64,000 bases of DNA from Limnohabitans sp. Jir61 (GTDB lineage Bacteria; Pseudomonadota; Gammaproteobacteria; Burkholderiales; Burkholderiaceae_C), in contig NZ_NESD01000001.1 in assembly GCF_003063545.1 (NCBI RefSeq), forward strand, positions 682,001 through 746,000, written 5' to 3'. The notes beneath the pieces are model-generated. The model was not told the origin of the DNA, searched no databases, and saw nothing but the letters and a program-made list of their open reading frames with translations. Made by a program: the position numbers and the translations under genes. Positions 1-23,485 of the stretch are shown here, piece by piece (positions within the stretch are counted from its first letter, which is position 1; each line of letters opens with the position of its first letter).

Positions 1-2
1 GC

Positions 3-836
3 GTGGGCGCATGTGCAGCGGGTGCATTGCTTGGGCTTGCAGGTGCATTGGCGCAAGGCTTGTTTCGTAACCCTTTGGCTGATCCGTATTTGCTAGGAAG
101 CGCATCGGGGGCCTCGCTGGGTGTTGCTGTGGCCTTGACGCTGTTTGGTGGCAATCCGTTTGCGACTGAATTTTTGGTGCGTTTGGGTTTGACAGGCTCA
201 GCGTTTATCGGGGCGGTGTTGGCTGTGTTGCTCACACTCGTGCTGGCGCGTGGCGTTCAACACACGTTGCGTTTGTTGTTGGCGGGCGTGATCGTGGGTG
301 TGGTGCTGGGCGCTCTTGCTTCGCTTATTACCCTCATGCGCCCCGATGTGTTGCAAGGCATGCAAGGCTTCTTGTTGGGCTCAACCAGCTTCATTGGTTG
401 GAATTCCTGTGCGTTGATGTTGGGTGTATTGCTCGTTTGCGTGGCAGTCTCATTTGCATTGAGCCGTGTGCTGGATGCTTTGAGCTTGGGTGAATCCACT
501 GCATTGAGTTTGGGTTTACCGCTCGCGCCCGTACGAGTGGCGCTGGTGTGTGTGTTGGCGCTGGCCACGGGGACGGCGGTTGCTCAAACGGGCTTGGTTG
601 CTTTTGTCGGCTTAGCTGCGCCGCACTTGGTGCGCTCGCTGGTGAAGACCAAGCACAACTGGATTGTGTTGCTGTCGGCTTTAATGGGCGGTGTCTTGCT
701 GCTGGCCGCTGACTTGTTGGCCCGCATGCTGTTGTCGCCTCAAGAGATGCCCGTGGGCGTACTAACTGCCGTGTTGGGCGGTGGCTATTTGCTGTGGCTG
801 ATGTATCGCGGTCAAACAACGAGGGCTGCACGATGA
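3..836 (+). CDS. btuC: FecCD-family ABC transporter permease (BtuC-like), 5' truncated by the window edge
   Basis: This is an inner-membrane permease of an iron-siderophore/vitamin B12-type importer. The visible 277 residues are almost wholly hydrophobic helices. They begin in the conserved early FecCD block (LFRNPLADP, then LLGSASGA) and end with the late block VAFVGLAAPHLVR, which faces the ATPase. About 50-60 N-terminal residues are missing compared with family members of roughly 330 aa, so the true start lies upstream of the window. The stop overlaps the ATPase start in an ATGA, showing translational coupling. The corrinoid substrate is inferred from cobO and cobQ just downstream; a siderophore permease cannot be excluded from the sequence alone. 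Confidence 0.85.
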   Translation: MGACAAGALLGLAGALAQGLFRNPLADPYLLGSASGASLGVAVALTLFGGNPFATEFLVRLGLTGSAFIGAVLAVLLTLVLARGVQHTLRLLLAGVIVGVVLGALASLITLMRPDVLQGMQGFLLGSTSFIGWNSCALMLGVLLVCVAVSFALSRVLDALSLGESTALSLGLPLAPVRVALVCVLALATGTAVAQTGLVAFVGLAAPHLVRSLVKTKHNWIVLLSALMGGVLLLAADLLARMLLSPQEMPVGVLTAVLGGGYLLWLMYRGQTTRAAR

Positions 837-1606
837 ATTCGCCGCTGATGGCTTTGCGTGTGCGCGATGTGCATGTGTCTCTTGCGGGGCAAGAGGTGTT
901 GCACGGGATTGATATCTCGTTTGTAGCAGGGCGTTGGACCAGCATCGTTGGCCCCAATGGTGCTGGCAAGTCCACCTTGCTCAAGGTCATGGCTGGGTTG
1001 TTGCCTTTCAGTGGCCGCATTTTTTTGTTTGACCAAGAGTTAATGGCGATGGACCGCAAGCAGCGCGCGCAGCAGCTGTCGTGGTTGGGTCAAAACGAAT
1101 CAGTGTCTGATGACTTGCGTGTGTGGGATGTGGTCATGCTCGGGCGCATGCCTCATCAAGATTGGCTGGCTGCGCCCAGTACGCATGATCATGCGGTGGT
1201 GGAAACTGCTTTGAAAGCCACACAATCTTGGGAATGGCGCGAGCGTTCCATCGGTCAGCTCTCGGGTGGTGAACGTCAGCGCGTGTTGCTGGCCCGCGCC
1301 ATGGCTGTGCAAGCGCAAGTGATGTTGATGGACGAGCCGCTTGCCAACCTAGACCCACCCCATCAAGTGGATTGGCTAGAGCAAGTGCGCTGCCTCACCG
1401 CGCAAAGCACCACCGTCATTAGCGTTCTGCACGAAGTGGGTATGGCCTTGCATGCGGATGACATGGTGGTCATGCAAACTGGCCGTGTGGTACACCAAGG
1501 TGCCTGCTCGGATGCGGCGACGCACCGTGCTGTTGAAGCCGTGTTTGACAAACGCATTGCCATTCATTCCCTAGATGGCCAGTGGGTGGCTGTGCCCAAG
1601 CTGTAA
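833..1606 (+). CDS. btuD: ABC transporter ATP-binding protein (BtuD/FecE-like)
   Basis: This 257-residue cytoplasmic ATPase drives the permease encoded just upstream. It carries Walker A GPNGAGKST, signature LSGGERQR and Walker B MLMDEPLANLD, with an H-loop histidine in SVLHEVG. The ATG at 833 is chosen because it overlaps the permease stop (ATGA); an in-frame upstream start at 794 would lie inside the permease gene. The length is normal for FecE/BtuD ATPases. A periplasmic binding protein (BtuF) and any cobalamin riboswitch would be expected upstream, outside the window. Cobalamin specificity is inferred from the neighbouring cob genes. Confidence 0.88.
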   Translation: MNSPLMALRVRDVHVSLAGQEVLHGIDISFVAGRWTSIVGPNGAGKSTLLKVMAGLLPFSGRIFLFDQELMAMDRKQRAQQLSWLGQNESVSDDLRVWDVVMLGRMPHQDWLAAPSTHDHAVVETALKATQSWEWRERSIGQLSGGERQRVLLARAMAVQAQVMLMDEPLANLDPPHQVDWLEQVRCLTAQSTTVISVLHEVGMALHADDMVVMQTGRVVHQGACSDAATHRAVEAVFDKRIAIHSLDGQWVAVPKL

Positions 1607-1621
1607 CCAAAGCGCTGCAAC

Positions 1622-2191
1622 ATGAATATCGAAAAACCGCCTGTCAATTACGCGCGTGTCACGCCGCAAGTTGAGCGACGTGGCTTGCTCATCGTCAACA
1701 CTGGGGACGGCAAAGGTAAAAGCACTGCAGCATTTGGCTTGGCCCTGCGCGCGCATGGCCGAGGTAAAGCGGTGAAGATTTACCAGTTCATGAAGGTGCC
1801 CACGGCGCGCTTTGGCGAACACCGCATGTTTGAACAACTCGGTATTTCGGTAGAAGGCTTGGGCGATGGCTTTAGTTGGAAAAGCAAAGACCTTGAACAC
1901 TCGGCGCAACTCGCGCGCGACGGCTGGCAAAAAGCCAAGGCTGCGATTTTGAGTGGCGAGTTTTTCTTGGTGGTGTTGGATGAAATTACCTACCCACTCA
2001 TTTACGGTTGGTTGCCGCTAGACGATGTGTTGGCTACCCTGCGTGCGCGGCCCACTGACGTGCATGTGTGCATGACTGGGCGTCGTTGTCCGACAGAGTT
2101 GATTGAGCTAGCCGATACGGTGACCGAGATGACCAAAATCAAACACGCCTTCAATGCAGGCATTCCCGCGCAACGCGGTATCGAAGATTAA
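1622..2191 (+). CDS. cobO: Corrinoid adenosyltransferase (CobO/BtuR)
   Basis: This protein transfers the adenosyl group of ATP to cob(I)alamin or cob(I)yrinate a,c-diamide, giving adenosylated corrinoids. Its 189 residues match the usual CobO/BtuR length. The P-loop [17 protein letters not shown] near residue 35, the [10 protein letters not shown] Walker-B-like segment and the late VHVCMTGR block are diagnostic of the CobA/CobO family and not of the unrelated PduO type. It starts 15 bp after the ATPase gene and 15 bp before cobQ, so it forms an operon of uptake plus late cobamide assembly. The neighbours suggest salvage or remodelling, but the full pathway is not visible here. Confidence 0.93.
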
Positions 2192-2206
2192 ATTTAAGGA
2201 CTCGCC

Positions 2207-3673
2207 ATGACGGCCAAGTGTGTGATGGTGTTGGGCACATCCAGCGGCGCTGGCAAAAGCTGGTTGACCACAGCGTTGTGCCGCTGGTATGCGCGTCAAG
2301 GCTTCAAAGTGGCCCCGTTCAAAGCGCAGAACATGAGCAACAACGCTCGCGTGGTGGCGTCGCACAACGGCCTAGGTGAAGTGGGCTCTGCCCAATACTT
2401 TCAGGCCCTCGCTGCCAAAGCCGAGCCCGATGTGCGAATGAACCCTTTGCTGCTCAAGCCCGAAGCCGACACGCACAGCCAAGTGGTTTTGCTGGGCAAG
2501 GTGAACAACGAACTAACGAACACGCCATGGCGCGGTCGAAGCGAAAAAGTTTGGCCGCAAATTGCAGCGTCTCTCGATGCTTTGCGTGCCGAAAACGATG
2601 TGGTGGTAATTGAGGGCGCGGGCTCGCCAGCCGAGATCAACCTCATGGCCAACGATATCGTCAATCTACGCGTCGCGCGTCATGGCGATGCGCGCTGCTT
2701 GCTGGTGACCGACATTGACAAAGGCGGTGCGTTTGCCCACTTGTACGGCACATGGGCCTTATTGCCACCAGAAGATCAAGCACGCATCACAGGCTTTGTA
2801 CTCAACAAGTTTCGCGGCGATGCATCGCTGCTTGCGCCTGCACCTGAGATGATGCAAGAGCGCACAGGCGTGCCCACGGTGGCCGTGCTGCCCATGTGGT
2901 GGCAACATGGCTTGCCTGAAGAAGATGGTGTGTTTGATGACCGAAGTCGCGCCACAGGTGTAGTGAATAAAACCGTGGCCGTCATTGCCTACCCACGCAT
3001 CAGCAACCTCGACGAATTTCAACCGTTAAAGAACGTGCCCGGTGTGCGCCTGTTGTGGGCGCGTAGCCCCGCCGATTTGGCTGGCTTGCAGGCTAGCGAT
3101 TGGGTCATCTTGCCTGGCTCGAAGCACACCAGCAGCGACCTTGCTTGGTTGCGCAGCCAAGGCCTTGACGCTGCCATTGCTCAACATGCAGAGCAGAGCG
3201 GTGGGGTGTTGGGCATTTGTGGTGGCTTGCAAATGTTGGGCGAGGCTTTGATTGACACACACAGCATTGATGGCAATGCAGCCGGCTTGGGGCTGTTGCC
3301 TGTGGTCACGCAATTCGCCGCAGACAAAACCGTGCGGCGCACCGCAGCCAAGTTTGGCCAACTGCGCGGTGCTTGGTCTGCGCTGTCGGGCGTGCAGGTG
3401 AGTGGTTATGAAATTCACCACGGACAAACACAAGCCCACGCTGCCATGGCTGCCGCAGGACAAGTGGTACATGAGGTGATGCCAAGCTTGGCTTGGCAAA
3501 ACGATGCAGGCAATGTGATGGGCTCGTACTTGCACGGTTTATTTGAAGACCCTGCCGTGTTGCAAGCCATGTTTGGTGCGCAAACGCCCACGCTAGAAAC
3601 TGTGTTTGAAGGCTTGGCCGATTACCTAGATCAACACATGAGCACCGATGTGCTGCGTGGCCTTATCGCCTAA
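2207..3673 (+). CDS. cobQ: Cobyric acid synthase (CobQ/CbiP)
   Basis: This glutamine-dependent, ATP-dependent amidase adds four amides to adenosylcobyrinate a,c-diamide. At 488 aa it has the normal length. The N-terminal dethiobiotin-synthetase-like ATPase has the P-loop GTSSGAGKS at residues 9-17. The C-terminal class-I-like glutaminase has the nucleophile Cys in GVLGICGGLQML near residue 338 and the His in YEIHHGQT. A terminal GSYLHGLFEDP block is typical. It is the last gene of the corrinoid operon and converges on nth with a gap of 5 bp. No terminator is evident between the two stops. Confidence 0.95.
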   Translation: MTAKCVMVLGTSSGAGKSWLTTALCRWYARQGFKVAPFKAQNMSNNARVVASHNGLGEVGSAQYFQALAAKAEPDVRMNPLLLKPEADTHSQVVLLGKVNNELTNTPWRGRSEKVWPQIAASLDALRAENDVVVIEGAGSPAEINLMANDIVNLRVARHGDARCLLVTDIDKGGAFAHLYGTWALLPPEDQARITGFVLNKFRGDASLLAPAPEMMQERTGVPTVAVLPMWWQHGLPEEDGVFDDRSRATGVVNKTVAVIAYPRISNLDEFQPLKNVPGVRLLWARSPADLAGLQASDWVILPGSKHTSSDLAWLRSQGLDAAIAQHAEQSGGVLGICGGLQMLGEALIDTHSIDGNAAGLGLLPVVTQFAADKTVRRTAAKFGQLRGAWSALSGVQVSGYEIHHGQTQAHAAMAAAGQVVHEVMPSLAWQNDAGNVMGSYLHGLFEDPAVLQAMFGAQTPTLETVFEGLADYLDQHMSTDVLRGLIA

Positions 3674-8594: not shown

Positions 8595-9013
8595 GATACG
8601 AAATTCCAGAAAAAAAGAAACTGGTCTACGAATGCAACATTCCCATTCGCTGGGGCGATATGGATGCAATGGGGCATATCAACAACACGGTTTACTTCCG
8701 TTATCTTGAAATTGCGCGAGTGGATTGGTTGCACAAGTTCAATGCCGCGCCCGGCCCCGAGGGTGAGGGCCCTGTGGTTGTGAATGCGTTTTGCAACTTT
8801 TATAAGCAGCTCGAATATCCAGGCGATGTGCTGCTCAAGATGTACACCAGCGACCCAGGCCGCACCACGTTTGAAACCTGGGCCACGATGGAGCAAGCCG
8901 CCAACCCAGGTGTGATTTACGCCGCGGGCGGGGCTACTACGATTTGGGTGGACTTTCCCAATAAAAAAGCGGTGGATTTACCTGCGTGGCTGCGTGAGAT
9001 CGTCACACCCTAA
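8591..9013 (+). CDS. Acyl-CoA thioesterase, 4HBT/YbgC-like hotdog fold
   Basis: This is a 140-residue hotdog-fold thioesterase. The signature IRWGDMDAMGHINNTVYFRY holds the conserved catalytic Asp and the loop typical of YbgC/FadM-like enzymes, which hydrolyse acyl-CoA thioesters. The ATG at 8591 overlaps the SDR stop, so a longer in-frame start within the SDR is rejected. The stop codon overlaps by 4 bp that of the convergent hydrolase gene. The substrate is not predictable; coupling to the SDR suggests a shared acyl-CoA intermediate. Confidence 0.87.
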   Translation: MRYEIPEKKKLVYECNIPIRWGDMDAMGHINNTVYFRYLEIARVDWLHKFNAAPGPEGEGPVVVNAFCNFYKQLEYPGDVLLKMYTSDPGRTTFETWATMEQAANPGVIYAAGGATTIWVDFPNKKAVDLPAWLREIVTP

Positions 9014-9909
9014 GTTTCTTGAGCCGTTGGGCTCCCAACGGCTTGCCATTGACTTTTGTTGGTCTCTTGCCATTCGCGCATATGTTTTTCGCTACCCATT
9101 TGGTTGGGGTGAAAGTCTTTGCGGAAATAGGCCGCGAAACGCGGTGTGCATCGCCATAACCAGCCATAACGACCAAAACAAAATTTAACTGCGGACCACC
9201 AAGTGCTGGGCTTATGAAGCGTGCGATCGTGCCAGAGGTTGTTGATGGTTTGGCGTATCACATCGGTCGTGAAGTGGATGGAGAGGTACACAACCCATAA
9301 CAAGCGCCAAGTGTGGTTGCCGCCGAGTTGTTGGTACAAATCAAACGCTACGGCTTTGTGTTCACACTCTTCTGCAGCATGCCAGCGCCAAAGTGTTTGC
9401 TGTGACGTATCGGCGTCTTGAAGCCAATCACTTTCTTTGCCAATGCTTTGCAGCGTCAGATCACCCAGCACGGATGTGAAATGCTCATAGCCTGCTGTGA
9501 TGGCCAACTCATGCAGGTGGCGCTTGGTAGATTTCAGGAACAAGCGACGTGCACGTGTTTTTCTTTTCACGATGCGTGGCCCCCAATGGTTCTTAAGGCC
9601 TTGCGCTTCTAGCTGGATGTTGTACTGGGCGTGCAAATGTCGGTGCGTGGCTTCTTGGCCAATAAAGCCTTGGATCGTGTCGTGAAAGGCGGGGTTACAG
9701 GTCTCTGCATCAAGGTGTTGCACACCATTACGGACGGATTCGATGAAGAACTGTTCACCTTCTGGAAAGCTGAAAGACAGCGCGTTGTAGAAAGCGGTTA
9801 AAAAAGCATCACCACCGTTCCAGTGTCGGCGCATGGGCGTAGACAGATCAACGCTCAACCGCCGAACGATCAGGCGTGGCGTGAAATCAGGTGATGGGAT
9901 GTTAGACAT
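9010..9909 (-). CDS. Predicted metal-dependent hydrolase (PF10118-type)
   Basis: This 299-residue protein resembles the uncharacterised COG3687 metal-dependent hydrolase family. Its metal-ligand-like segments include FIGQEATHRHLH, YEHFT and HAAEECEHKAVAFD, a Glu/His-rich helical arrangement reminiscent of ferritin-like di-iron proteins. The start at 9909 (MSNIPSPDF) is preferred. The frame stays open about 320 bp further upstream, but that stretch overlaps the YkgJ-like gene in another frame. A TWWSAVKFCFGRYGWLWR segment is strongly aromatic and may be membrane-associated. The reaction is unknown. Confidence 0.75.
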   Translation of the reverse strand: MSNIPSPDFTPRLIVRRLSVDLSTPMRRHWNGGDAFLTAFYNALSFSFPEGEQFFIESVRNGVQHLDAETCNPAFHDTIQGFIGQEATHRHLHAQYNIQLEAQGLKNHWGPRIVKRKTRARRLFLKSTKRHLHELAITAGYEHFTSVLGDLTLQSIGKESDWLQDADTSQQTLWRWHAAEECEHKAVAFDLYQQLGGNHTWRLLWVVYLSIHFTTDVIRQTINNLWHDRTLHKPSTWWSAVKFCFGRYGWLWRCTPRFAAYFRKDFHPNQMGSEKHMREWQETNKSQWQAVGSPTAQET

Positions 9910-13342: not shown

Positions 13343-13416
13343 TGGAGCGGGTGATGGGAATCGAACCCACGTTATTTGCTTGGGAAGCAAGAGTCCTACC
13401 ATTGAACGACACCCGC
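13343..13416 (-). tRNA. tRNA-Gly (anticodon CCC)
   Basis: This is a complete cloverleaf with acceptor GCGGGTG/CACCCGC, the D arm GTTCAATGGTAGGAC, anticodon loop TTCCCAA (CCC) and the T arm GTGGGTTCGATTCCCAT. The terminal CCA is encoded (13343-13345). The 5' half, from the anticodon loop outward, lies inside the 55-bp direct repeat shared with 23377-23431, so this tRNA is the insertion site of the 10-kb element. Its -10 box (TACAAT on the minus strand, 13429-13434) is within the repeat, but everything further upstream, including the -35 region, is element DNA. Confidence 0.95.
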
Positions 13417-13434
13417 AGAGGTGCTGGCATTGTA
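13380..13434 (-). repeat. attL-like 55-bp direct repeat (tRNA-Gly 5' half plus -10 box)
   Basis: These 55 bp are identical to 23377-23431. The repeat starts at the last base of the anticodon loop (13380) and ends exactly at the outer edge of the TACAAT -10 hexamer (13434). The flanking bases differ from the other copy on both sides. It marks the left junction of the integrated element. Confidence 0.9.
13429..13434 (-). promoter_or_regulatory. -10 box of tRNA-Gly promoter, at the element junction
   Basis: TACAAT lies 12 nt before the mature tRNA 5' end. The same hexamer is the last part of the right-hand repeat copy. The -35 region therefore differs between the resident (right) and element-supplied (left) promoters. 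Neither upstream sequence has a strong TTGACA. Confidence 0.6.
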
Positions 13435-13630
13435 GGTGTGTGAGCCTCTGCCTTGTGCGTGACTGGTTCTGTAGTGCTTTGTGTGATGTGCGACTTGGGT
13501 GTAGTGGGGGGGGGTGTGCGATAGCTTCCACCGTTGTTGAGTTGATGTTGGTTAAAAATCTTACCAATGTTGTTGTTTTTATCAAATTTAGATTTAGACT
13601 GTTATCTATCTTACAAATACAAGAATAGCT

Positions 13631-15859
13631 ATGACACGTCCTCTGATTGCCATTACTCTGTTTGCAGTTGCACTAATTGGGTGTGGCGGTGGAGGCGGTG
13701 GCGGTGGCGGTGGTCCAGCAGGTGGTTCCCCAGCTCCATCAGGTTTTTCTGGTGTTGCGGTTGATGGGTACCTTACTAATGCTCGAGCCTTCCTAGACTT
13801 AAACGGTAATGGAGCGTATGACGCTGGAGAACCTTCGTCCCTAACTGGAGCAGACGGCTCTTTTAATTTGAATGCGACGCAAGATCAAATCAATAGTCAC
13901 TCGGTTATTGTTCAAGCGATTTCAGGCACAACGATCGACCAAGATACACCTAACACTCCGCTGGCAGCTGGATTCACGATGATTGCGCCAGCCGGATACC
14001 CCTCAGTGGTTTCTCCATTGACTACTCATGTCGCTGCAAAAATGGCGACAGGTCTTTCTATTGATTCTGCAAAGTCTGCAGTTCAGTCGGAGTTGGGGTT
14101 GACGTCAATCGATGTTATGAAGAACTTTGTGGCTGAGAAAACGACTAACACAGCATATGCTGATGCACACAAGGTAGCTGTTTCTGTTGCGGAGCTACTG
14201 AAGACGGTTGATGCAAATTCGAACTCGTCCACGTCAATGTCGGAAAAATTGGCTAGTTTGACAACTAAGGTAACAAATCAAGTCGTTCCGCAATTAACAC
14301 AAATAAAAACATCAATAACGATTAATGATGCTAAAAACGTCACAATTAATATTATTAATAATGTTTCAGTGGCCGCTATTTATAATCTTGCTGGTTCAAT
14401 AAGCGGATTAACTTCGAGTGGTTTGGTTTTATCCAATGGAACAGATAATTTTAGCCCTGCATTAAATGCAACATCTTTCACTTTTAAAAACAAACTTTCA
14501 AATGCTGATGTTTACGAGGTAAAGATAAAAAATCAACCTGAAGGACAAATCTGCTCCCTGTTAAATGGATTTGGTGCAATTAATAATCAGTCAGTCACAA
14601 ATATATCGGTGCGATGTGCGGATGCTCCAGGTGTATTGGGAGGTGTAATATCTGGACTCACTACATCGGGGCTTATTTTAAAAAATGGCTCTACTCAATT
14701 GTCTATTAACTCAGGAAGTAGTAGTTTTCAGTTTCAAGATAAAATAAATTCTGGTGATGGATATAGTGTGACAGTGCATCAGCAGCCTTTAGGTAAAACT
14801 TGTAGTGTTTCAGCGGCATCGGGTGTAATGACACGGAGTGGAATTAGTAATATACAAGTTACTTGTTCAGCGAATTCCTATAAGATTGGTGGTGCTGTTT
14901 CCGGTCTAATTTCAGCCGGATTAAGGTTGAAGAGTGGTAGTGAAATAATTGATATTTCATCCGGCGTCGGAAGTTATACCTTTACATCTCCAATCGCCTA
15001 TGGATCTAATTACAATGTAGAGGTAGTTAATTCTCCTGCAGGTTTCACATGTGTTGTTGATTCAGCATCTGGAACGATGGGGGCGTCGAATATATCTAGT
15101 GTTAACGTATCGTGCGCAGATGGTCGGGCATTTGTGGGGGGGACTTTTACAGGGACTATTGCTAGTGGTCTAAAAATAAAAAATGGTTCTGAAATACTAT
15201 CCATTCCAGAGAATAGTACGCAATTTCGTTTCAGCAGTAGAGTTTCTAATGGAGCTGCATATAACATATCAGTAGAAACACCACCCGATGGTTATCAATG
15301 TGTTGTGTCTAACGGAAGTGGTTTTGTGGCTGGGGGAGACGTGACTACGCCAAATATTAACTGTTTCCTATACAGTCCTCAGTATTTTAAATACACGGCT
15401 GATGCTTGGGGTCAGCTATTAAACTATACAACCAGAACTGGAATTTGCGGTCAAGACATAGCAGTAGTCAGCTGCCTTACCATGAGTATCAACGAGCAGT
15501 ATGTTGATATGAAGGTTGGTGATAGGATTATTATTGATGGATCTGGTTTCTATTTCTCAGTACTTTTACTCAACGATGATGGCAGTTTTTGGGATACTCC
15601 ACGCATGTCATTCAGAGGGTTTCAGCTCGGTATTAGTGATAGCGACTACGATGCTGGTGTTGCTATTCACGTAGGCGAACCAGCTCTTCCGGGTGTTGCA
15701 GCGAGTTGGGGCTATTTTTCAAATAATTATGATCCACCTATATCTCCTAAATCTGCCATGATTATTTTGAAAAAACCTGGCATCTATAGCTTGTCAATCG
15801 ATCATCCCTTATGGGGGGTTAGACGATTGTTTGTAAAGTTGCGGGTCACTTATCCATAG
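13631..15859 (+). CDS. Large repeat-containing lipoprotein (element cargo), function unknown
   Basis: This 742-residue protein starts with a lipoprotein signal peptide: a hydrophobic stretch ends in the lipobox LIGC, with Cys at residue 18, followed directly by a ten-Gly tether. Residues 38-75 hold a VDGYLTNARAFLDLNGNGAYD segment with a DxNxNxxxD calcium-binding-like loop, as in carboxypeptidase-regulatory/SdrD-B-like modules. Residues about 247-585 hold four tandem repeats of about 83 aa, each with a (I/V)SGL..SGL.LKNGS-like start, a PxGxxC motif and an xVxC end, giving two Cys per repeat that could form a disulfide. The last 155 residues form a separate domain of unknown type. The gene is AT-rich and on the strand opposite to the rest of the element. 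It is probably envelope-anchored; the role is unknown. Confidence 0.75.
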   Translation: MTRPLIAITLFAVALIGCGGGGGGGGGGPAGGSPAPSGFSGVAVDGYLTNARAFLDLNGNGAYDAGEPSSLTGADGSFNLNATQDQINSHSVIVQAISGTTIDQDTPNTPLAAGFTMIAPAGYPSVVSPLTTHVAAKMATGLSIDSAKSAVQSELGLTSIDVMKNFVAEKTTNTAYADAHKVAVSVAELLKTVDANSNSSTSMSEKLASLTTKVTNQVVPQLTQIKTSITINDAKNVTINIINNVSVAAIYNLAGSISGLTSSGLVLSNGTDNFSPALNATSFTFKNKLSNADVYEVKIKNQPEGQICSLLNGFGAINNQSVTNISVRCADAPGVLGGVISGLTTSGLILKNGSTQLSINSGSSSFQFQDKINSGDGYSVTVHQQPLGKTCSVSAASGVMTRSGISNIQVTCSANSYKIGGAVSGLISAGLRLKSGSEIIDISSGVGSYTFTSPIAYGSNYNVEVVNSPAGFTCVVDSASGTMGASNISSVNVSCADGRAFVGGTFTGTIASGLKIKNGSEILSIPENSTQFRFSSRVSNGAAYNISVETPPDGYQCVVSNGSGFVAGGDVTTPNINCFLYSPQYFKYTADAWGQLLNYTTRTGICGQDIAVVSCLTMSINEQYVDMKVGDRIIIDGSGFYFSVLLLNDDGSFWDTPRMSFRGFQLGISDSDYDAGVAIHVGEPALPGVAASWGYFSNNYDPPISPKSAMIILKKPGIYSLSIDHPLWGVRRLFVKLRVTYP

Positions 15860-15891
15860 TCCCTAATCGCTTACGCCACTTCAACCACTGT

Positions 15892-16098
15892 TTAAAAGTC
15901 ATCATAGTAGTCATCCTTGGCAATCACTAAAACCATTGCCTTGTTGTCTTCTGTGATGGCGAAGCTGTAGAAGTCGCTGTTCATCTCACGAATCATTTCA
16001 ATCACACGGTCTTGGTTCCCCCTAAACCCGTGGTCATGGACCTTGTGGGCAATCTGAGTGATGGGGTTGGGGATTGGTGGTTTTGTTTTCTTTGCCAT
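15892..16098 (-). CDS. Small hypothetical protein of the element
   Basis: This 68-residue protein is not recognised. The N-terminus is basic and Pro-rich (MAKKTKPPIPNP) and the C-terminus is acidic (AKDDYYDDF). Coding status is supported by an excellent Shine-Dalgarno sequence, AAAGGAGG, 6 bp before the ATG. It lies downstream of the replication gene on the same strand across a 314-bp spacer with inverted repeats, so it may have its own promoter there. A regulatory or antitoxin-like role is possible but unsupported. Confidence 0.6.
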   Translation of the reverse strand: MAKKTKPPIPNPITQIAHKVHDHGFRGNQDRVIEMIREMNSDFYSFAITEDNKAMVLVIAKDDYYDDF

Positions 16099-16412
16099 AA
16101 GTACCTCCTTTTAGTGGCGTTGCGGGTACTTATGACGTTTCAAATCCCCAATTAATTAATCCTCGTAGGTTCAAACCAACGGTTTCGTATGGGTGGTTTC
16201 CACCATATCGGTTTAAGTCAACCTAGTTTGGTTGCTAACTAAGCAAACGACACACCCTTCAAATGACGCATTTTTAGGGGGTTTACGGGCGTTTCCCATA
16301 ACAGCTGGTACGGTTTTCGTCGATTTTTGGGTCGTCAAAATCCAGGGAGGGGATAACAGATGTGTGTTTTTAGTATTTTTATATAAATTAGCTCAGTTAT
16401 CCCCGCCCTTGG
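16099..16412. other. Non-coding spacer with inverted repeats downstream of the rep gene (possible origin or regulatory region)
   Basis: This 314-bp stretch has no convincing gene. It contains an imperfect hairpin at 16188-16207 (arms TATGGGTGG and CCACCATA) and a 9-bp perfect inverted pair GGGGATAAC (16349-16357) and GTTATCCCC (16396-16404). An AT-rich segment, including TTTTTATATAAATTA, lies between the two arms. A candidate replication origin, or the promoter region of the 68-aa gene, would fit. A small plus-strand open frame crossing it looks spurious. Confidence 0.4.
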
Positions 16413-19400
16413 TCAAATGGTCGGTTGGGATGGCGTAAACCCATGGAGTTGGTTGATGAATATCCAATCGTCTTGGATGGACTCTCGGAGGGTTCTAAGT
16501 TCGACCATCGTGTTGTAGGAGTCAGGGTCGATCATGTACTGGTAAATCTTGTCTTTGCCATTCTTTTTGGTCGATTTGATGGTTGATATTCCAACCATTT
16601 TCAAGAACCAATGCAGTTGTGTCGTTGGTTTAGATATGAGGTCACTCCTAAGTGGGTGATTGAACTGCCCTTGAACGTAGGCGCTTAGTTTTTTACAAGT
16701 CCGAATGAATTCAGTGAGATCAGACATCGTATAAATTGAAGTCAGATCAAAGTGACCATCTTTGAATGGAGGCGTGCTTGATAGCAGTGTGTTCATCAAC
16801 TCAACCTTTGCTTCCCACTCTTTAAGCCGATCAAACGGAATTGTTTTGTTACCTACGAAATACTTGATATTTTTTTGCTTCTTAATTTCTTTGATTAGGC
16901 TAGAGTCGGTGATAGCGTTGAAGAGTCTAAACTGGTTTCGTAGTTCTCCTCGTTGGTCTTTGCTGATAACACTCTCACTCAAGGGGCACTGATAAAACGC
17001 CTCAAGAGTCATGCGTCGGAATGACCAATAGCTATCTTCCGAGAGATTAGAGTCATCACCTAGAGCCTCTTGAATTACATCGAAGTCGGTTTTAGATATT
17101 GGTTTCGCATTTAATATATTTTGAATAAATTGTTCGTTATCAAGGCGTTTGCCTAACGCAATTGCATCCTTGCCTTGATCTGCAAATGCATCATTTTTTG
17201 CAATCAAAGTTGGAACCCAGCCTGTCTTGATTTTGTAATCAATGAAGTTCTTTTTTAGGTTGTTCTGTGAACGTCGCTGGTCAGAAACGATATGAGTTGC
17301 CATTGTTAAGAATGGGTCAGTCTCGTTGTAAATCTGCTCTCGTTTGATTGGATCAAATCCAACAAATGTGTTGGCAATTACTTGGTCAACTAGCAATTGA
17401 CGCTTGATGACACCGAACTCAGTTTCGAAATCAAACGTCCTTGGACTGAGCCAGACTCGTACATTTTTTGGGTGTCGGACACGGCGAATTTGTTGGTCGA
17501 TATCTAGGTGGGTGTTGATTAAAGACTCAAAGAAACCGTAGCAGCAATCAACAATTTTTTCATTATTTTCAAAAGTGAAATCAATTCCTGTTCCTAGAGA
17601 TGGACTGCACATGAATACATTGAATTTTTTGAATGTTTCCTGAAAAAATGAGGTGTTGTACTGCGCCTCATCTGTCCTCGAATTGGCAGAGGTCACAGCA
17701 AACGAAACACCATCACCGAACTTCTCCCTGATGCCTGCATGCAGGCGTTCAATCAGTCGTTTCGAGTTGGCAGCAACAAACAACTTTTTGCCATCGGCAA
17801 CGTCCATCATCATTCGACCTATTAGGTCGTCCTTGGATGAATAAATCTCAATCTGAGACTTGTCCGCTATGTGTTCATTGATGATTAACCACAGACGATT
17901 GTCTTTTGCCGCCGTGGGGGTAGTAATGCCACGCATCTCTGTTAACGTGAGGTATGAAGTCCAACCCAAGTCAGCATCAAGTGCTACTACGTTGGTTGCA
18001 GAGCTGATGACGTAACGCAACATCGAATAGATCGATTCCCGTCTTTTCATTGTGTCTGACAACAGATGGGCGAGAACTTGTTCGCATTCATCAATGACTA
18101 TGAGGTCATAGTCAATGTCTCTGACTTTCCAGAGACTGTCCAAGCAAACGCCATAACGTTTTCTTCTACGTTTGACCTCTTGAAAATCAAACTTGTCGTC
18201 GTCGAGGTAGCAGTTCAGACCCAGGCGGTTGCATAGCTGACGAATCAATGCTTGTCGATGACCAATCAATAAAATTTTGTAGTTGTTGGTAAGTAATCTT
18301 GGGGGTTCATCAGGATCGACATTTTCGACATCTTCAAGGGTCCGAAAGTCTTTGCTAACAATAAGATTTCTAATAATCTCAGTCAGTGATTCAGTCTTTC
18401 CTGAACCTTTAGGACTTCTTATGAGTGTGAGCCCGTTGTGCAAACCGTCAACTTCTAGATACTGGTGATTAACTATCTCTACAGATCCAATTCCCAGCGT
18501 TGGCATCTTTTTCGGATCAATGTGGTCGGGAAATACACGTAACTCTGACTTGGCATCTACCAGTTCACGAGATTGCTTGATGATCTTCACAAATTCATAG
18601 TCATCGTGCGTTCGTATGGCTTCCTCTTTTTCTGACTCAACCCACCAAGTCGTGCGACATACGATGCAAAACATGTAGGTTGATCCATGCGCATTTTTGT
18701 TGGTAAATGCACTGGCATTGCCATCGTTATGGAATTTGCAATGAATTTGAGTTTGTTGATTGAGATCGACAAGTCTTGTTAGAAGACCTGCTTTGGTAAA
18801 CGCCTCAAAATCACGTGGAAGCTTTTTTGTGCATCTTCTCGTGCCTGTATTGAAGTCTCCTGTTATTGAGTCAGTTTTGCTGATGATGGGGGCTGCTCGA
18901 CCGAGTTCGATTAATTCGTCAATTACGTCAGTCGGGATGTACCCATCAAAAACTTCATATCCTGCTGAACGATTGCCATATGAAATTCTCGATGCGTCGT
19001 GTGTACTGGGATCTCCGCAGAACTTCAATCCCAATGCTCGTTTGATAGCAACGTATTCGCTCGGATCAGTTAGATCACGTTCTAAGAGAAATCCCAGACG
19101 GAATCGATTCTCTTCAACTGTGTGTTTGACTGTCGTGTAGAAGAAGGTGAGGTGACTTCTTGCAAACTCATCCTCCAACACATCCTTGATGGTTGTGCCA
19201 GCATCGACATCGATCGATACGAGGTTTGTTAGTGAGTAGTTTTTGTTTGATCTGCTGCCATGTAATTGGGCGCAGAAGGCGTGTCCGTCATGAGCGACGG
19301 TATTGATGAGTTCATCGATCTTGAGTTCGACGTTTTCCCACTCTTTTGCCAAGTAGTAGAGATTGCCGCCGATGTTCTTGTCGACGATGTGGCGGTTGAT

Positions 19401-19427
19401 GGCAACCTTAGCTAGTTTTTGATTCAT
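16413..19427 (-). CDS. Plasmid-type replication protein, CyRepA1-like (primase-polymerase plus SF2-like helicase)
   Basis: This 1004-residue protein has the architecture of CyRepA1/origin-binding replication proteins. An N-terminal archaeo-eukaryotic primase-like region has an acidic pair in LVSIDVDAG (Asp73, Asp75) and conserved-looking RFRLGFLLERD and HDASRISYG segments. A zinc-finger-like CKFH...CIVC cluster follows near residues 229-257. A helicase core then has Walker A SPKGSGKT near residue 340 and a DEAD-like VIDECEQV near 442, followed by a motif VI-like QQIRRVRHP near 658. The C-terminal 300 residues are unrecognised. The family replicates small plasmids. The start has GGGGGA upstream, and a large cruciform-capable repeat lies in front of it. 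The gene belongs to the integrated element and implies extrachromosomal replication. Confidence 0.75.
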   Translation of the reverse strand: MNQKLAKVAINRHIVDKNIGGNLYYLAKEWENVELKIDELINTVAHDGHAFCAQLHGSRSNKNYSLTNLVSIDVDAGTTIKDVLEDEFARSHLTFFYTTVKHTVEENRFRLGFLLERDLTDPSEYVAIKRALGLKFCGDPSTHDASRISYGNRSAGYEVFDGYIPTDVIDELIELGRAAPIISKTDSITGDFNTGTRRCTKKLPRDFEAFTKAGLLTRLVDLNQQTQIHCKFHNDGNASAFTNKNAHGSTYMFCIVCRTTWWVESEKEEAIRTHDDYEFVKIIKQSRELVDAKSELRVFPDHIDPKKMPTLGIGSVEIVNHQYLEVDGLHNGLTLIRSPKGSGKTESLTEIIRNLIVSKDFRTLEDVENVDPDEPPRLLTNNYKILLIGHRQALIRQLCNRLGLNCYLDDDKFDFQEVKRRRKRYGVCLDSLWKVRDIDYDLIVIDECEQVLAHLLSDTMKRRESIYSMLRYVISSATNVVALDADLGWTSYLTLTEMRGITTPTAAKDNRLWLIINEHIADKSQIEIYSSKDDLIGRMMMDVADGKKLFVAANSKRLIERLHAGIREKFGDGVSFAVTSANSRTDEAQYNTSFFQETFKKFNVFMCSPSLGTGIDFTFENNEKIVDCCYGFFESLINTHLDIDQQIRRVRHPKNVRVWLSPRTFDFETEFGVIKRQLLVDQVIANTFVGFDPIKREQIYNETDPFLTMATHIVSDQRRSQNNLKKNFIDYKIKTGWVPTLIAKNDAFADQGKDAIALGKRLDNEQFIQNILNAKPISKTDFDVIQEALGDDSNLSEDSYWSFRRMTLEAFYQCPLSESVISKDQRGELRNQFRLFNAITDSSLIKEIKKQKNIKYFVGNKTIPFDRLKEWEAKVELMNTLLSSTPPFKDGHFDLTSIYTMSDLTEFIRTCKKLSAYVQGQFNHPLRSDLISKPTTQLHWFLKMVGISTIKSTKKNGKDKIYQYMIDPDSYNTMVELRTLRESIQDDWIFINQLHGFTPSQPTI

Positions 19428-19470
19428 AAATCCCCCGTGTATAGGTCGAGTCCGATTGACCTGTGACCGT

Positions 19471-19525
19471 GAATACTTGCAGGGGAGGGGGATGAGTTCG
19501 GACTCAGCGTCCCCTGCAAGTATTC
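19471..19525. repeat. Perfect 16-bp inverted repeat with nested hairpin upstream of the rep gene
   Basis: The arms 19471-19486 and 19510-19525 (GAATACTTGCAGGGGA and its complement) are perfectly matched. The 23-nt spacer contains a nested TGAGT/ACTCA stem with a TCGG loop. An 8-bp GAGTCCGA at 19448-19455 is complementary to TCGGACTC at 19498-19505, allowing an alternative fold. It lies between int and rep, 44 bp upstream of the rep start. It could be an operator, attenuator or replication origin; the lack of a T-run argues against a simple terminator. Confidence 0.65.
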
Positions 19526-19569
19526 CGTGTCTGAGGGTATTTATACAGTATTGATATGCTTTAGCTAAG

Positions 19570-20637
19570 TTATTTGTCTAGATTCATCTTGTTGATGAGG
19601 TCAGTTGCCTTACGTGAGACCTGTGCTTGCTCAATGTGGGCATAACGCATGGTTGTCTTGATGTCCGAGTGACCAAGGATTTCCTTGACCTCGTATAGGT
19701 TCATGCCATTCTGGATTAGACGGGTGGCAAGCGTATGGCGAAGGGTGTGTGCTGAGCAATCAGGCAACCCAGCTCGTTGGAATGCCTTGTGAAACGTCAT
19801 GTTGATGTGTTTTCTTGCCTCACCTTGTGCATTTGTAAAAACGAACTTGGAATTCCTGCTGACAAATCGTCTCAACAGCACTTTATGAACTCTGTCGCTC
19901 ATGTAGAGGACTGATTCGTTTTTAACTTTAGAGCGCCACAGAGCTATTGTCTTTCTTGCCATGTTGATTTGGGACCACTCAAGCGTGCAAATCTCACCAT
20001 GGCGTGCCCCTGTATCCAGCAAGATGATGATGAAGTCGTGGACATCTTGCATCTGCTTTTTAATGCGTGGTATCCGTTTTTCATAGGTTGCTAGACCCTT
20101 GACCTCACGCTTGGGATCAACTGCCTCAAGGAGGCGCTGCTCTTCTTCCACCGTCAGATAACGTAGGCGACCTCGGGACAGTTTGATACTGGGGATTTCG
20201 ACCTCAGGGACTTGATACCCCATCCGCTTGGCATATTTGATGGTGCCACCAACTTGGTTCAAGGCATGTTTGATCGTCTGATTGCTGTACGCCTTGCGTT
20301 CCATGTCGATCTTGAAGCGTTCAATGTCACGACTCTGCAGTAAGTGCAGGTGTGGAACGTATGAGAAGAACTCTGCTGCACGCATCGACCAGAGATTGAC
20401 AACGTAGTGACTGACGATCTTTTTCTTGGATGCTGAATACTCTTTGAATGCTTCCAGCGTGTCGATCGTTGGTTTGATGCCGAGTTGATATTGCTCGATT
20501 AGCTGCTTGCGCCAATTGGATTCGAGGCGTTCCGCAAGTTCTTTGTCAGTGGTCTTGGATGACTTGATGTACATCTTGCCGCCATACTGGAACTGGATGT
20601 ACAGGTACTTGGAACCTTCACGTTTGACGATTGCCAT
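19570..20637 (-). CDS. int: Tyrosine recombinase/integrase of the element
   Basis: This 355-residue site-specific recombinase has all catalytic residues visible: Arg212 in DTGARHGEI, Lys237 in SKVKN, His297-x2-Arg300 in HTLRH, His323 in LGHSD and the nucleophile Tyr332 in MRYAH. The N-terminal 60 residues look like an arm-binding domain (YLYIQFQYGGKMYIKSSKT) and residues about 60-150 like the core-binding SAM-like domain. It presumably catalyses integration at the 55-bp tRNA-Gly core. It sits in the middle-right part of the element and not at the end. No obvious Xis is adjacent, although either of the two small genes just upstream could serve. Confidence 0.93.
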   Translation of the reverse strand: MAIVKREGSKYLYIQFQYGGKMYIKSSKTTDKELAERLESNWRKQLIEQYQLGIKPTIDTLEAFKEYSASKKKIVSHYVVNLWSMRAAEFFSYVPHLHLLQSRDIERFKIDMERKAYSNQTIKHALNQVGGTIKYAKRMGYQVPEVEIPSIKLSRGRLRYLTVEEEQRLLEAVDPKREVKGLATYEKRIPRIKKQMQDVHDFIIILLDTGARHGEICTLEWSQINMARKTIALWRSKVKNESVLYMSDRVHKVLLRRFVSRNSKFVFTNAQGEARKHINMTFHKAFQRAGLPDCSAHTLRHTLATRLIQNGMNLYEVKEILGHSDIKTTMRYAHIEQAQVSRKATDLINKMNLDK

Positions 20638-20719
20638 GGGATGTGTCCGTTAAATGCGGTCACTGTCCAGTCAAATCACTGCTTGGGCAACGGGAGTGAA
20701 ACCGTCAATTTAATCGACG

Positions 20720-20749
20720 CTTCTAGTGGGTGATAGCCCCCACTAGAAG
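20720..20749. repeat. 11-bp perfect inverted repeat upstream of int
   Basis: CTTCTAGTGGG (20720-20730) and CCCACTAGAAG (20739-20749) form a stem with an 8-nt loop in the 122-bp gap between the small hypothetical gene and int. No T-run follows on the minus strand, so it may be a regulatory hairpin or operator controlling int, not a terminator. Confidence 0.5.
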
Positions 20750-20759
20750 GTGAGGGCGA

Positions 20760-21029
20760 TCAGTCTGCCTTCTGCTTACGGAACTTGCGGCTGATGTTGT
20801 AGTAATAGGTAGGGGAACCCTTGGGCGTTACGTCTGCCCCCTCGACGAATGCTCGGAGGACAACCTCACGATGCTCGTCATGGATTAGGCGAAAGATTGC
20901 CCTTGCTGCGTCTGCTTTGCTGCCCCCATTAGTCAGGATGGTTCGACCTTCTTGAACTGCCTTGGTATAGCGGTTCTTGTCCTTGGGTTCAATCTGTTGT
21001 TTAGGGGTTTCAGGGGTAGGTGTTGGCAC
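20760..21029 (-). CDS. Small hypothetical protein of the element
   Basis: The protein is about 89 residues if started at the GTG at 21029, which has GGAAG upstream and overlaps the end of the preceding gene by 20 bp. The same frame is open to 21116, but that N-terminal part is out of character (Trp/Arg-rich) and overlaps the other gene. The core, KADAARAIFRLIHDEHREVV followed by an RAFVEGADVTPKGSPTYYYN segment, looks like a compact helical nucleic-acid-binding protein. No function is recognised. The position directly before int would suit an excisionase or regulator. Confidence 0.55.
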   Translation of the reverse strand: MPTPTPETPKQQIEPKDKNRYTKAVQEGRTILTNGGSKADAARAIFRLIHDEHREVVLRAFVEGADVTPKGSPTYYYNISRKFRKQKAD

Positions 21030-21216
21030 TGTATTTCTTCCACAAAATGTTGATGATTTCCATGGCATTTGGGGTCGATATGCCCTCCATGCCAGAGATG
21101 TCCTCAAACAAGTCAAAGGCGACTTCTGTGAAATGACTCTGTGTCAAATTGAACCCACACTTCTCACGAATGACGTAGATAAGTCGGTATTGTTCGGCAG
21201 GGGAGAGTTGGTCCAT
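21010..21216 (-). CDS. Small acidic hypothetical protein of the element
   Basis: This 68-residue protein has an ATG preceded by AAGGTG. It is not recognised. It is predicted to be helical (SPAEQYRLIYVIREKCGF, then FTEVAFDLFEDI). The stop lies inside the start region of the next small gene, so the pair is translationally coupled. It heads the small-gene/int group on the minus strand. Confidence 0.5.
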   Translation of the reverse strand: MDQLSPAEQYRLIYVIREKCGFNLTQSHFTEVAFDLFEDISGMEGISTPNAMEIINILWKKYSANTYP

Positions 21217-21304
21217 AGGTCACCTTGGTTGCTGAGGTGAGGGGACCATCCCTGAGATTTAGTTGAAAGACAACTGGTGTTTATTAATTACCGAGGCTAA
21301 TTGA

Positions 21305-22120
21305 TCATGAACTTTTAGGAGGGCTCTTACTGCTTTCCTTTTTATTTCCCCTGTTCGACTTGTCTCTAAGTATTGATCTGTATTCAAGCACTTCAGGAAT
21401 GATGTGTGATTTGCCTCCCCAATCCTGCTTGTTTAGCTCTTTACCTACGTTCGGATTGGCATCATCTAGAAACAGAGATTGATTGATGTTCGATTTTGAT
21501 AACACGCTTGTAATGTAGGCATCAAATGCCTCATTAATTTTCGAACGACATGCCTGCGTAACGGATTCTGCAATTACGTCGGCGCCGCTTAATCCGTCAT
21601 CCATTTTTACGATTGCGGACTTTACACACTTGTCTCTTGCGTTGAGTGCATCTAATGCAGCAAGGTCATAGGTTTTTTGAACTGCCTTGGATACTTCGAA
21701 TTCATCTCTCTTAAAGTCGATTCTGATGGAGTTTTTTTGCGCTGTTGCGTCCATGGTTTTCACAAGCTCATTTAACCAATTTGATGTGCAAACTTCAGCT
21801 TCTGAATTAGGTAATAAGCTGCAGCTCCTCAAGTTATTGATGTTTAATTTTTTTAATTTTTGTAGATCGTTCAACTCTACTGTTGACCTGAATACTTTGA
21901 GTTGTTGAAAAGCAAAGTCGATAGCTTTAGCCTTTTCAATGAGTACTGGATTCAAACAAATTTGTTTCATGTGTGGGTGCAGACCAAGCGTTTTGTTGAA
22001 CTCGCACTCCGATGGAATTGAGCCTGCAAACGCCCATCCGACGGGCAATAAAAGAAGATTGACCGCCAATACGGTCTTTTGTGCTGATCTGAAGATGACT
22101 TTCATTTGGACGCTGAACAT
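21305..22120 (-). CDS. Probable secreted or periplasmic protein of the element, function unknown
   Basis: This 271-residue protein has an N-terminal Sec-type signal: a basic start, hydrophobic VLAVNLLLLPVGWAF and a probable AFA cleavage site. An internal Met at residue 6 (22105) is an equally possible start. The mature part has six cysteines (CEF, QICL, RSCS, EVCT, DKCV, QACR) and is mostly helical, with a charged Lys/Ser-rich tail. No known domain is recognised. It lies 90 bp downstream of the cyclase-like gene on the same strand, so the two may be cotranscribed, but the exported location does not match known Pycsar effectors. Confidence 0.55.
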   Translation of the reverse strand: MFSVQMKVIFRSAQKTVLAVNLLLLPVGWAFAGSIPSECEFNKTLGLHPHMKQICLNPVLIEKAKAIDFAFQQLKVFRSTVELNDLQKLKKLNINNLRSCSLLPNSEAEVCTSNWLNELVKTMDATAQKNSIRIDFKRDEFEVSKAVQKTYDLAALDALNARDKCVKSAIVKMDDGLSGADVIAESVTQACRSKINEAFDAYITSVLSKSNINQSLFLDDANPNVGKELNKQDWGGKSHIIPEVLEYRSILRDKSNRGNKKESSKSPPKSS

Positions 22121-22210
22121 GAACTTTATCGCTCTGTGTTATGGCTGGATCCACACGGCTGTTGAGGTGTGCGGACCCTACCTGTGATCATGAATGAGGA
22201 CAATAGGTTT

Positions 22211-23020
22211 TCAATCAAGTTTGCAGTTTTCTAAAGCTGCAGCTTGTTTTAAGAACCCCAATAACCAGTGCCATTTTTCTCGTTGTTTAGGTTCAAGATG
22301 TGTGTTGTTTACTTGCTGTTCCATTTTCGACTGTAATCTTGAATACCATGATGAGAGTTTTTTTGGCGATTCATTTGGGGCGAAAAATAATGAAGGCGTG
22401 AATGTGTTGACTGTCCAGTGTCCTTGATATTCGATCACCATACGGTTCATTGTTCCTGATGCTATGTCGATCCAGTATTTTGTCGCTTCTTTTCCAAGGA
22501 TGACTCTAGGGAAAATCGCTTCCTTTGACTCCAGTTCATAGGCGTCAATGAATGCCGGACCAACGATATTTGTCTTTGTGTGCCAAACATCGCCTATCTC
22601 TAGTCCCCCTCTCAGGAGAAAACCGTGATTCAGGAAAACTAACGAACACTGAATAATACGAGTGACTACGTCTTGGAATCCGTCAATGTCTTTATGTTCA
22701 GGTTGCTCTAGTCGTTGCGACAGGATGAGACTATCCGACACCTGTAGATATCGAGGGAATATCTCAGGGTGATTTTGTGCTCGAAATAGACCAAGTGTTG
22801 TTGCCTGCAGAAGGTTGCTTCTAGGAATCGCTGAGTTCAATAAATTGATGATTTGATTGATAGCCTCAAGGTTGCCTTGCTTAACTTGAGAGGTGAATCC
22901 GAGAGCATCAATAAAGGCAACGACTGATTTCTCGTAACAGACTTCTAACTTCTCAGTGTTCGGGTGCGAATGGTCAGGCTTTGGAAAAGCTGGAGATAAA
23001 AAAGTCATGCTACTTGTCAT
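22211..23020 (-). CDS. Class III nucleotide-cyclase-like protein (element cargo, possible defence or signalling gene)
   Basis: The protein is about 269 residues from the ATG at 23020. The frame is open to an ATG at 23086, but that start would overlap the 30-bp repeat. The pattern resembles class III adenylate/guanylate cyclase homology domains and the Pycsar PycC-like branch: a first metal-Asp motif VVAFIDALGF, a second acidic motif LQVSDSLIL, then LRGGLEIG, and GPAFIDAYELESKEAIFPRVI. The assignment rests on pattern recognition alone. It could make a cyclic nucleotide or be an inactive relative. It lies at the end of the mobile element, a usual position for cargo, and the secreted-protein gene follows it. 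Confidence 0.55.
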   Translation of the reverse strand: MTSSMTFLSPAFPKPDHSHPNTEKLEVCYEKSVVAFIDALGFTSQVKQGNLEAINQIINLLNSAIPRSNLLQATTLGLFRAQNHPEIFPRYLQVSDSLILSQRLEQPEHKDIDGFQDVVTRIIQCSLVFLNHGFLLRGGLEIGDVWHTKTNIVGPAFIDAYELESKEAIFPRVILGKEATKYWIDIASGTMNRMVIEYQGHWTVNTFTPSLFFAPNESPKKLSSWYSRLQSKMEQQVNNTHLEPKQREKWHWLLGFLKQAAALENCKLD

Positions 23021-23046
23021 GGCCTGATTGTCCAATATGCTCGCCG

Positions 23047-23276
23047 CTGCGGAAAACCAGTCTGGGTGATGATTGGCTAGACCCATTCCTTCAAACTGTT
23101 GAAGTTGGTCTAGGGATACAACAGACGACTTCTCTATATAAAAATCAAAAACACAGACCTGTTAGCCCCATCCGGAATTTGGAAGAAACAAGGTTGGTTG
23201 ATGTTGACTTACACCTTGGAATGTTGGAAGGTGTAGGCATAACTCCCTGCGGAAATCCAGTCTGGGTGATGACTGG
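23047..23276. repeat. Pair of 30-bp direct repeats near the right end of the element
   Basis: 23047-23076 and 23247-23276 match at 28 of 30 positions and are exactly 200 bp apart. Each contains CCAGTC-N8-GAYTGG, so each can form a hairpin. A third partial copy starts at 23336 (CTGCGGAAGACC), close to the right att repeat. A further imperfect hairpin lies at 23288-23328. They are too few and too widely spaced for CRISPR; they may be recombinase arm sites or regulator sites. Confidence 0.6.
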
Positions 23277-23376
23277 GGTAACCCAATCCACCACCTGTAT
23301 GTGTGGAACTGCTGGAACAGGTTAGTGGCGTCTCACTGCGGAAGACCTGTGGACGTTACGACACGTCATTAGGGGG

Positions 23377-23431
23377 TTGGGAAGCAAGAGTCCTACCATT
23401 GAACGACACCCGCAGAGGTGCTGGCATTGTA
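23377..23431 (-). repeat. attR-like 55-bp direct repeat (truncated tRNA-Gly 5' half)
   Basis: This is an identical copy of 13380-13434. It comprises the 5' 37 nt of tRNA-Gly(CCC) followed, in the upstream direction, by its leader and TACAAT -10 box. There is no 3' half, so it cannot give a tRNA. The chromosomal sequence to the right is presumably the original upstream promoter region of the tRNA. Confidence 0.9.
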
Positions 23432-23485
23432 TCGGGGCGTGATCTAAACTGAACGCACGACATGGTTTGAATATGGAGACGCACT

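Follow-up and report, generated by a model that had tools for sequence, protein, structure and literature searches.

A 10-kb integrative element on the 5′ side of a tRNA-Gly(CCC) gene in Limnohabitans sp. Jir61

Introduction

Elements that target tRNA genes usually rebuild the 3′ half of the gene and do not displace the host promoter. In Limnohabitans sp. Jir61, an element of about 10 kb lies on the 5′ side of a tRNA-Gly(CCC) gene, which raises the question of what such an element recombines and what it gives back to the gene. We addressed this question in a 64,000-nucleotide stretch of contig NZ_NESD01000001.1 (assembly GCF_003063545.1, positions 682,001 to 746,000; hereafter the window, whose coordinates are used below) and in related genomes. 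The answer we reach, and consider very probable, is an integrative plasmid-like element whose integrase recombines its own attachment site (attP) with the anticodon loop of tRNA-Gly(CCC). Because the element brings a promoter region, the host tRNA would depend on mobile DNA.

A direct repeat of the tRNA 5′ half bounds the element

A perfect 55-bp direct repeat (copies at 13380–13434 and 23377–23431, 9997 bp from start to start) brackets the element. An earlier reading, made from the sequence without database searches, had proposed such a repeat around 10 kb with an integrase, and both the spacing and a PF00589 match bear it out. The runner-up direct repeat in the 12 kb examined is only 43 nt long (84%). 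The element has a GC content of 43.9% versus 54.1% in the remaining window. ARAGORN gives a single tRNA-Gly(CCC) prediction, at 13343–13416 on the minus strand. Read on the tRNA strand, the repeat opens with TACAAT, runs through the 18-bp upstream leader and tRNA nt 1–37 (anticodon loop, nt 31–37) and stops at the last base of the anticodon loop, exactly the extent described in the sequence-only reading. A query of tRNA plus leader found one full copy in the genome itself, the 55 bp of the right repeat, and a single further match at 84%, which is tRNA-Gly(TCC). The boundary features are listed below (G023 is a genome of the same genus; L034 is a related contig discussed further on).

13343–13416, minus strand: rebuilt tRNA-Gly(CCC), element 5′ half (13380–13416) joined to host 3′ half (13343–13379); ARAGORN
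13380–13434, minus strand: left (tRNA-side) repeat copy, a hybrid attachment site
13380–13386, minus strand: anticodon loop TTCCCAA, putative 7-bp crossover region, placed by the overlap of the Gly 5′-half block with the Arg 3′-half block of L034
13429–13434, minus strand: TACAAT, −10-like box forming the outer edge of the repeat
13435–13498, minus strand: integrase-distal arm, lying upstream of the tRNA (promoter side); 92% identity with G023 (65 columns)
23198–23376, minus strand: integrase-proximal arm; 93% identical to G023 (179 columns)
23377–23431, minus strand: right repeat copy, the displaced host tRNA-Gly 5′ half with its original leader
23432–23485, minus strand: host sequence originally upstream of the tRNA, from which about 10 kb now separate it; putative promoter

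Uninterrupted sites and linkage to the integrase

When joined, the host flanks align unbroken across the junction to genome G045 (query 1–3303 of 3304, 84.5%). They are also unbroken against G076 (query 576–2433, bounded by the G076 stretch), and the uninterrupted locus that had been proposed for a search is thus found in two relatives. Among 29 tRNA loci of the genus (L004–L032), the right-flank sequence starts within about 130 bp upstream of the tRNA in 12; two others (L005, L008) hold the element and one (L012) a decayed element. The remaining 14 are uninformative: the contig ends, the neighbours differ, the flank match lies at a greater distance or, in L032, the tRNA match is weak.

The displaced 5′ fragment (query 1–55) is listed in 3 of 84 genus genomes, namely the window genome (G000), G023 and G001, and the integrase (E 1e-25) occurs in the same three; a dispersed tRNA scrap unrelated to the integrase does not fit this distribution. 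The tRNA query matched anything in 56 of the 84 genomes, and 40 are at least 90% complete with at most 5% contamination, many being incomplete.

The integrase gene of G001 is split by an insertion with two open reading frames (ORFs) (L041:11521–12656), which we take to be IS3-like. A mobile element 3′ of the tRNA was considered in G026 and rejected, the extra 4.5 kb there being without recognised integrase (ORFs read by eye only).

The common sequence is 37 nt rather than 55 bp

The sequence-only reading took the whole 55 bp as the site. In both G023 and G001, nt 1–37 are common to the copy in the intact tRNA and the remnant, and the leaders differ; the 55 bp therefore overstate the conserved site. 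All three elements share the 37-nt tRNA 5′ half ending at the last anticodon-loop base. The 18-bp leader with its −10-like box is identical between both copies only in the window genome, and at uninterrupted sites the 37 nt are present and the 18 leader bases incomplete. A 55-bp attachment site was rejected.

The leaders themselves fall into two types. The leader of the G001 remnant differs from that of an uninterrupted relative (L006) at 1 of 16 bases, and that of the G023 remnant is similar to the G000 and G045 leaders; in both genomes the leader before the remnant looks host-type. Over the 110 bp upstream of the intact tRNA, G000, G023 and G003, a genome with a decayed element, are alike (scores 41–58), and G001 scores 22 versus G000, 8 versus G023 and 7 versus G003. 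None of 92 comparisons of element with host upstream regions scores above 7. The element ends are 92–93% identical between G000 and G023 (65 and 179 columns), and the interior alignment reaches 74% (4985 columns). The 55-bp identity of the window is probably a 37-bp attachment sequence plus an 18-bp leader converted locally to the host type, since the window leader resembles the host leader of G023.

Relatives outside the genus keep the same half

Scanning genome_contigs for the integrase gave three relatives: L033 (the G023 contig), L034 and L035. Sampled searches, with the own or centre genome counted each time, were positive in 2 of 399 genomes at family level, 3 of 399 at order level and 1 of 369 at class level; in the genus of G425, 2 of 89 genomes were positive. 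The class-level search (369 genomes, E 1e-70) returned the own genome only, and among 22 genomes of the family of G742 the integrase was in G742 only. With tblastn, the integrase had no plasmid match at 1e-30 and matched 26 phage records (26–27% identity among the matches listed); a viral_contigs scan with an integrase alignment gave three weak relatives (22–28%).

The G425, G1293 and L035 integrases, from other betaproteobacteria, are 54–59% identical to that of the window. Each has a tRNA-Gly(CCC) 5′-half fragment upstream of the integrase and of an ORF related to the 118-amino-acid (aa) ORF that adjoins the integrase in the window; 30–31 of 37 positions match the window. G425 and G1293 adjoin a flank matching a window flank gene at 78–80%, presumably aldehyde-dehydrogenase-like. 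Listing the attachment sites of integrase homologues, as had been suggested at the outset, thus yields ten distinct integrases: six next to a 5′ half of Gly(CCC), with both ends visible for three of them, one in Arg(CCG) with a 3′ half, and three for which no target was found (G742 and both of G803). tRNAs near the G742 and first G803 integrases had no displaced fragment by exact 15-mers, and no tRNA was called in the stretch examined around the second G803 integrase.

A relative that restores the opposite half

The Arg(CCG) case is L034, whose integrase is 60% identical to that of the window. An intact tRNA-Arg(CCG) lies at 8959–9034 of this contig, and a 49-bp repeat (98% identical, copies 7930 bp apart) extends from one base before the anticodon loop to the tRNA 3′ end, the conventional 3′ half. 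With respect to the tRNA, the integrase points in the direction seen in the Gly elements, so the orientation of the element is unchanged and only the tRNA-mimicking arm differs. Since opposite halves are used without a change of orientation, the half restored would depend on the attP arm that mimics the tRNA and not on integrase polarity; such a pair of relatives makes control of half choice by attP or by the integrase directly testable.

The Gly block (nt 1 to the loop end) and the Arg block overlap in the 7-nt loop plus one base, and this overlap suggests that strand exchange takes place in the anticodon loop. Seven nucleotides is the canonical size of the tyrosine-recombinase overlap region according to the available part of a review of archaeal recombinases (PMC8371274).

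In the integrase tree, a branch with support 100/99 places L034 together with the G000 and G425 pairs, apart from L035 and two rows for which no target was found. This resolved tree was obtained after a very divergent row had been dropped and G1293 added, the first tree being unresolved, and the placement of L034 and L035, marked by the program as long branches, is unsure. The direction of the half-switch depends on this tree and on outgroup rows for which no target was found; it tentatively favours the Gly 5′ half as the older state.

L034 also encodes an 891-aa B-family DNA polymerase (PF03175, L034:11264–13939) and has no CyRepA1 match at E 1e-4, so the replication module, CyRepA1-type in the window, seems to have been exchanged. 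The polymerase had no match in PDB. L034 is possibly a pipolin-like element; by the same criterion the window element is not one, its eight ORFs including no B-family DNA polymerase.

An element-supplied upstream region, also without the element

The sequence-only reading further held that the element must keep the 5′ half and the promoter working. The 5′ half is indeed kept. For the promoter, 27 of 31 upstream sequences have a −10-like box (at least five of six bases), among them all four supplied by elements, and we infer transcription of the tRNA from element DNA from the position of the element and the conservation of its arm. Weighing against a working promoter, there is no recognisable −35, each of the four element-supplied sequences reaching 3 of 6 at best, and scans with promoter consensus sequences were negative at the tRNA in both locations. 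In host sequences where the −10 was set, the best −35 match is 2–4 of 6. One 9/12 promoter match is located inside the element, some 140 bp upstream of the tRNA, where alignment between elements looks poor by eye.

A tRNA-Gly(TCC) gene is present elsewhere in the genome. GGG can be read by tRNA-Gly(TCC) through wobble, and this gene may relax the demand on tRNA-Gly(CCC).

In G003, a decayed element occupies the 5′ side of the same tRNA (L046:14996–19642). The 4.6 kb separating the flank from the tRNA yielded no integrase, replication gene or 5′ fragment. What is retained is cargo, a lipoprotein-like and an outer-membrane-like gene, and the element-type region is still in front of the tRNA. Two retained cargo genes are in common with G023, one at 79% and one at 50%. 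G003 suggests that promoter takeovers can outlive the element.

Gene content

The eight element ORFs were scanned against Pfam, NCBIfam and PHROGs at E 0.01.

13631–15859, plus strand: cargo at the tRNA end, predicted lipoprotein of 742 aa (read by eye from the N-terminus)
15892–16098, minus strand: 68-aa ORF with a relative in G023 (52%)
16413–19427, minus strand: CyRepA1-family replication protein, 1004 aa (NF042913, 299.6 bits against a cut-off of 200)
19570–20637, minus strand: tyrosine recombinase (integrase), 355 aa (PF00589, E 6e-30)
20760–21116, minus strand: 118-aa ORF adjoining the integrase, with relatives in 7 of 9 related elements (G023, G001, G425, L034, L035, G742, G1293)
21010–21216, minus strand: 68-aa ORF overlapping the 118-aa ORF, with relatives in 4 of 9 (G023, L034, L035, G742)
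21305–22120, minus strand: 271-aa cargo ORF without family match (Pfam, NCBIfam, PHROGs, PADLOC)
22211–23086, minus strand: 291-aa cargo ORF (PHROG 23933, function unknown)

The integrase is one open frame, lying away from both repeat copies and about 2.7 kb from the nearer one. R212, K237, H297, R300, H323 and Y332, which we take to be the catalytic residues, are invariant across four homologues.

The CyRepA1 protein has relatives in G023, G001 and L035, on 110 plasmid records (best 34%, on a Bradyrhizobium plasmid) and on 25 phage records, mostly Vibrio (22–26% identity among the matches listed). Given these plasmid and phage relatives, the element can be inferred to lead an excising, replicating, plasmid-like life. 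In L035 the CyRepA1 similarity is split over two reading frames (L035:8027–9897), so this gene looks broken or mis-assembled.

In these scans, none of the eight ORFs was recognised as a virion or conjugation gene. The 742-aa cargo ORF is without Pfam or NCBIfam match and has a partial match to PHROG 24736 (function unknown, E 1.8e-13). PADLOC gave zero matches for six ORFs, of which four belong to the window.

Several repeats were noted inside the element. The 43-bp direct repeat (84%; 23047–23089 and 23247–23289) lies near the integrase-proximal end, with an extra CTGCGGAA copy closer to the junction; these are candidate arm-binding sites of the recombinase. Between the replication and integrase genes, an inverted repeat (arms 19460–19486 and 19510–19536, 81% complementary) could be a terminator or a replication signal. 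An imperfect 57-nt inverted repeat (74%; 16327–16383 and 23135–23191), with arms 6.7 kb apart, may be due to chance.

Proposed mechanism and alternatives

We propose an attP whose integrase-distal arm includes a promoter region, a leader bearing a −10-like box and a second version of the tRNA 5′ half, with crossover within the 7-nt anticodon loop. Integration would join the element 5′ half to the host 3′ half, giving an intact gene presumably read from element DNA, and would leave the host 5′ half and its promoter at the far end of the element. The element would also excise and replicate as a circle through CyRepA1. Of this scheme, sequence comparison establishes the boundaries, the uninterrupted sites, the linkage of fragment and integrase and the element-type leaders. 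Besides the promoter results above, several observations count against it. An excised circle was not seen, the exact attP/attR pattern having 0 matches in viral_contigs. The contigs of G425, G1293 and L035 stop short of an intact tRNA, so that only the remnant side is visible, and in G425 and G1293 the fragment may extend 3 nt beyond the loop. Block edges in the Gly–Arg comparison may be lengthened by about one base through chance matches. No target was found for the three distant integrases (37–49%) in the stretches examined.

Three other explanations were weighed against this scheme. The 55-bp repeat could be the real attachment site, with exchange near the −10 box rather than in the anticodon loop; in the window genome, repeat identity does reach the outer edge of TACAAT. 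We regard this as very improbable: in G023 and G001 the leaders are of host type at the remnant and of element type at the tRNA, and an exchange upstream of nt 1 would have left a host leader on the tRNA; moreover, the identity block of L034 lies 3′ of the loop. Still less credible, to the point of being nearly negligible, is segmental duplication or homologous recombination between tRNA copies without site-specific integration. tRNA genes are repeated sequences, and nothing locus-specific supports a duplication here, whereas three elements of one genus have an identical 37-nt boundary, three further 5′-half fragments stop at the loop or no more than 3 nt from it, a related integrase accompanies every one, and uninterrupted orthologous sites exist.

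The alternative that deserves most attention is a frozen island, in which repeat and integrase are relics and the element is immobile. The split integrase of G001, the reduction of G003 to cargo and an element-type promoter region, and the lack of a circle under the attP/attR search all point that way. In the window, however, the repeats are perfect, the integrase is one open frame with the homologue-invariant residues, and the 1004-aa replication protein scores above its family cut-off; we therefore judge immobility unlikely, if a real contender. Returning to the integrative element that we prefer, its history can be put together as follows: a Burkholderiales clade keeps the Gly(CCC) 5′ half across genera, with the tRNA promoter region on its own attP arm; L034, nested within it, switched half with its orientation on the tRNA unchanged, the mimicking attP arm setting which half is restored; and in G003 the promoter takeover persisted. 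As a combined statement this is tentative, and we would place it slightly short of an even bet.

Comparison with known systems

The view that most tRNA-targeting elements restore the 3′ half agrees with the Islander report, in which 3760 islands have a 3′ fragment and a 5′ fragment is recorded for 159 (3919 in total; PMC4383910). Two other papers on tRNA-targeting elements describe, in their available parts, 3′-half or 3′-end sites (PMC10865867, PMC2647930). The review of archaeal recombinases states, in the portion available, that reconstitution of a bacterial tRNA leaves it under its original promoter ‘with very few exceptions’; it adds that pTN3-like integrases use the tRNA 5′ half and, citing Williams 2002, that a bacterial counterpart is ‘seldomly encountered’ (PMC8371274). 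In the open-licence literature we found no paper on the window integrase family or on a half-switch between relatives.

As far as the Islander source describes them, its 5′-fragment islands resemble the window element in having a tyrosine integrase, an intact tRNA at one end, an anticodon site and a displaced 5′ fragment that lies upstream and points the same way, and the window element shows no difference in kind from them. pTN3-type elements of Thermococcales, from the available text, likewise target the tRNA 5′ half (41 bp common to attP and the chromosomal site attB in pTN3), and the rebuilt tRNA is cut off from its original promoter (PMC5495485); they differ in being archaeal and in having an integrase gene that is disrupted on integration, whereas the window integrase is intact. 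Tycheposons, in the part of their description at hand, share a tRNA at one border, a tyrosine recombinase and cargo (PMC10872708). CyRepA1 plasmids and related Vibrio and Aeromonas phage replication proteins belong to the same replication protein family; the window differs in holding a 10-kb integrated element, with no conjugation or virion gene recognised among its eight ORFs. Since 5′-fragment insertion is already on record in Islander and pTN3, the element is of a rare known kind and not a new one: the mirror image of the usual tRNA insertion. Its interesting parts are the recurrent use of the 5′ half in this family, the half-switch, and a promoter region that outlives its element in G003.

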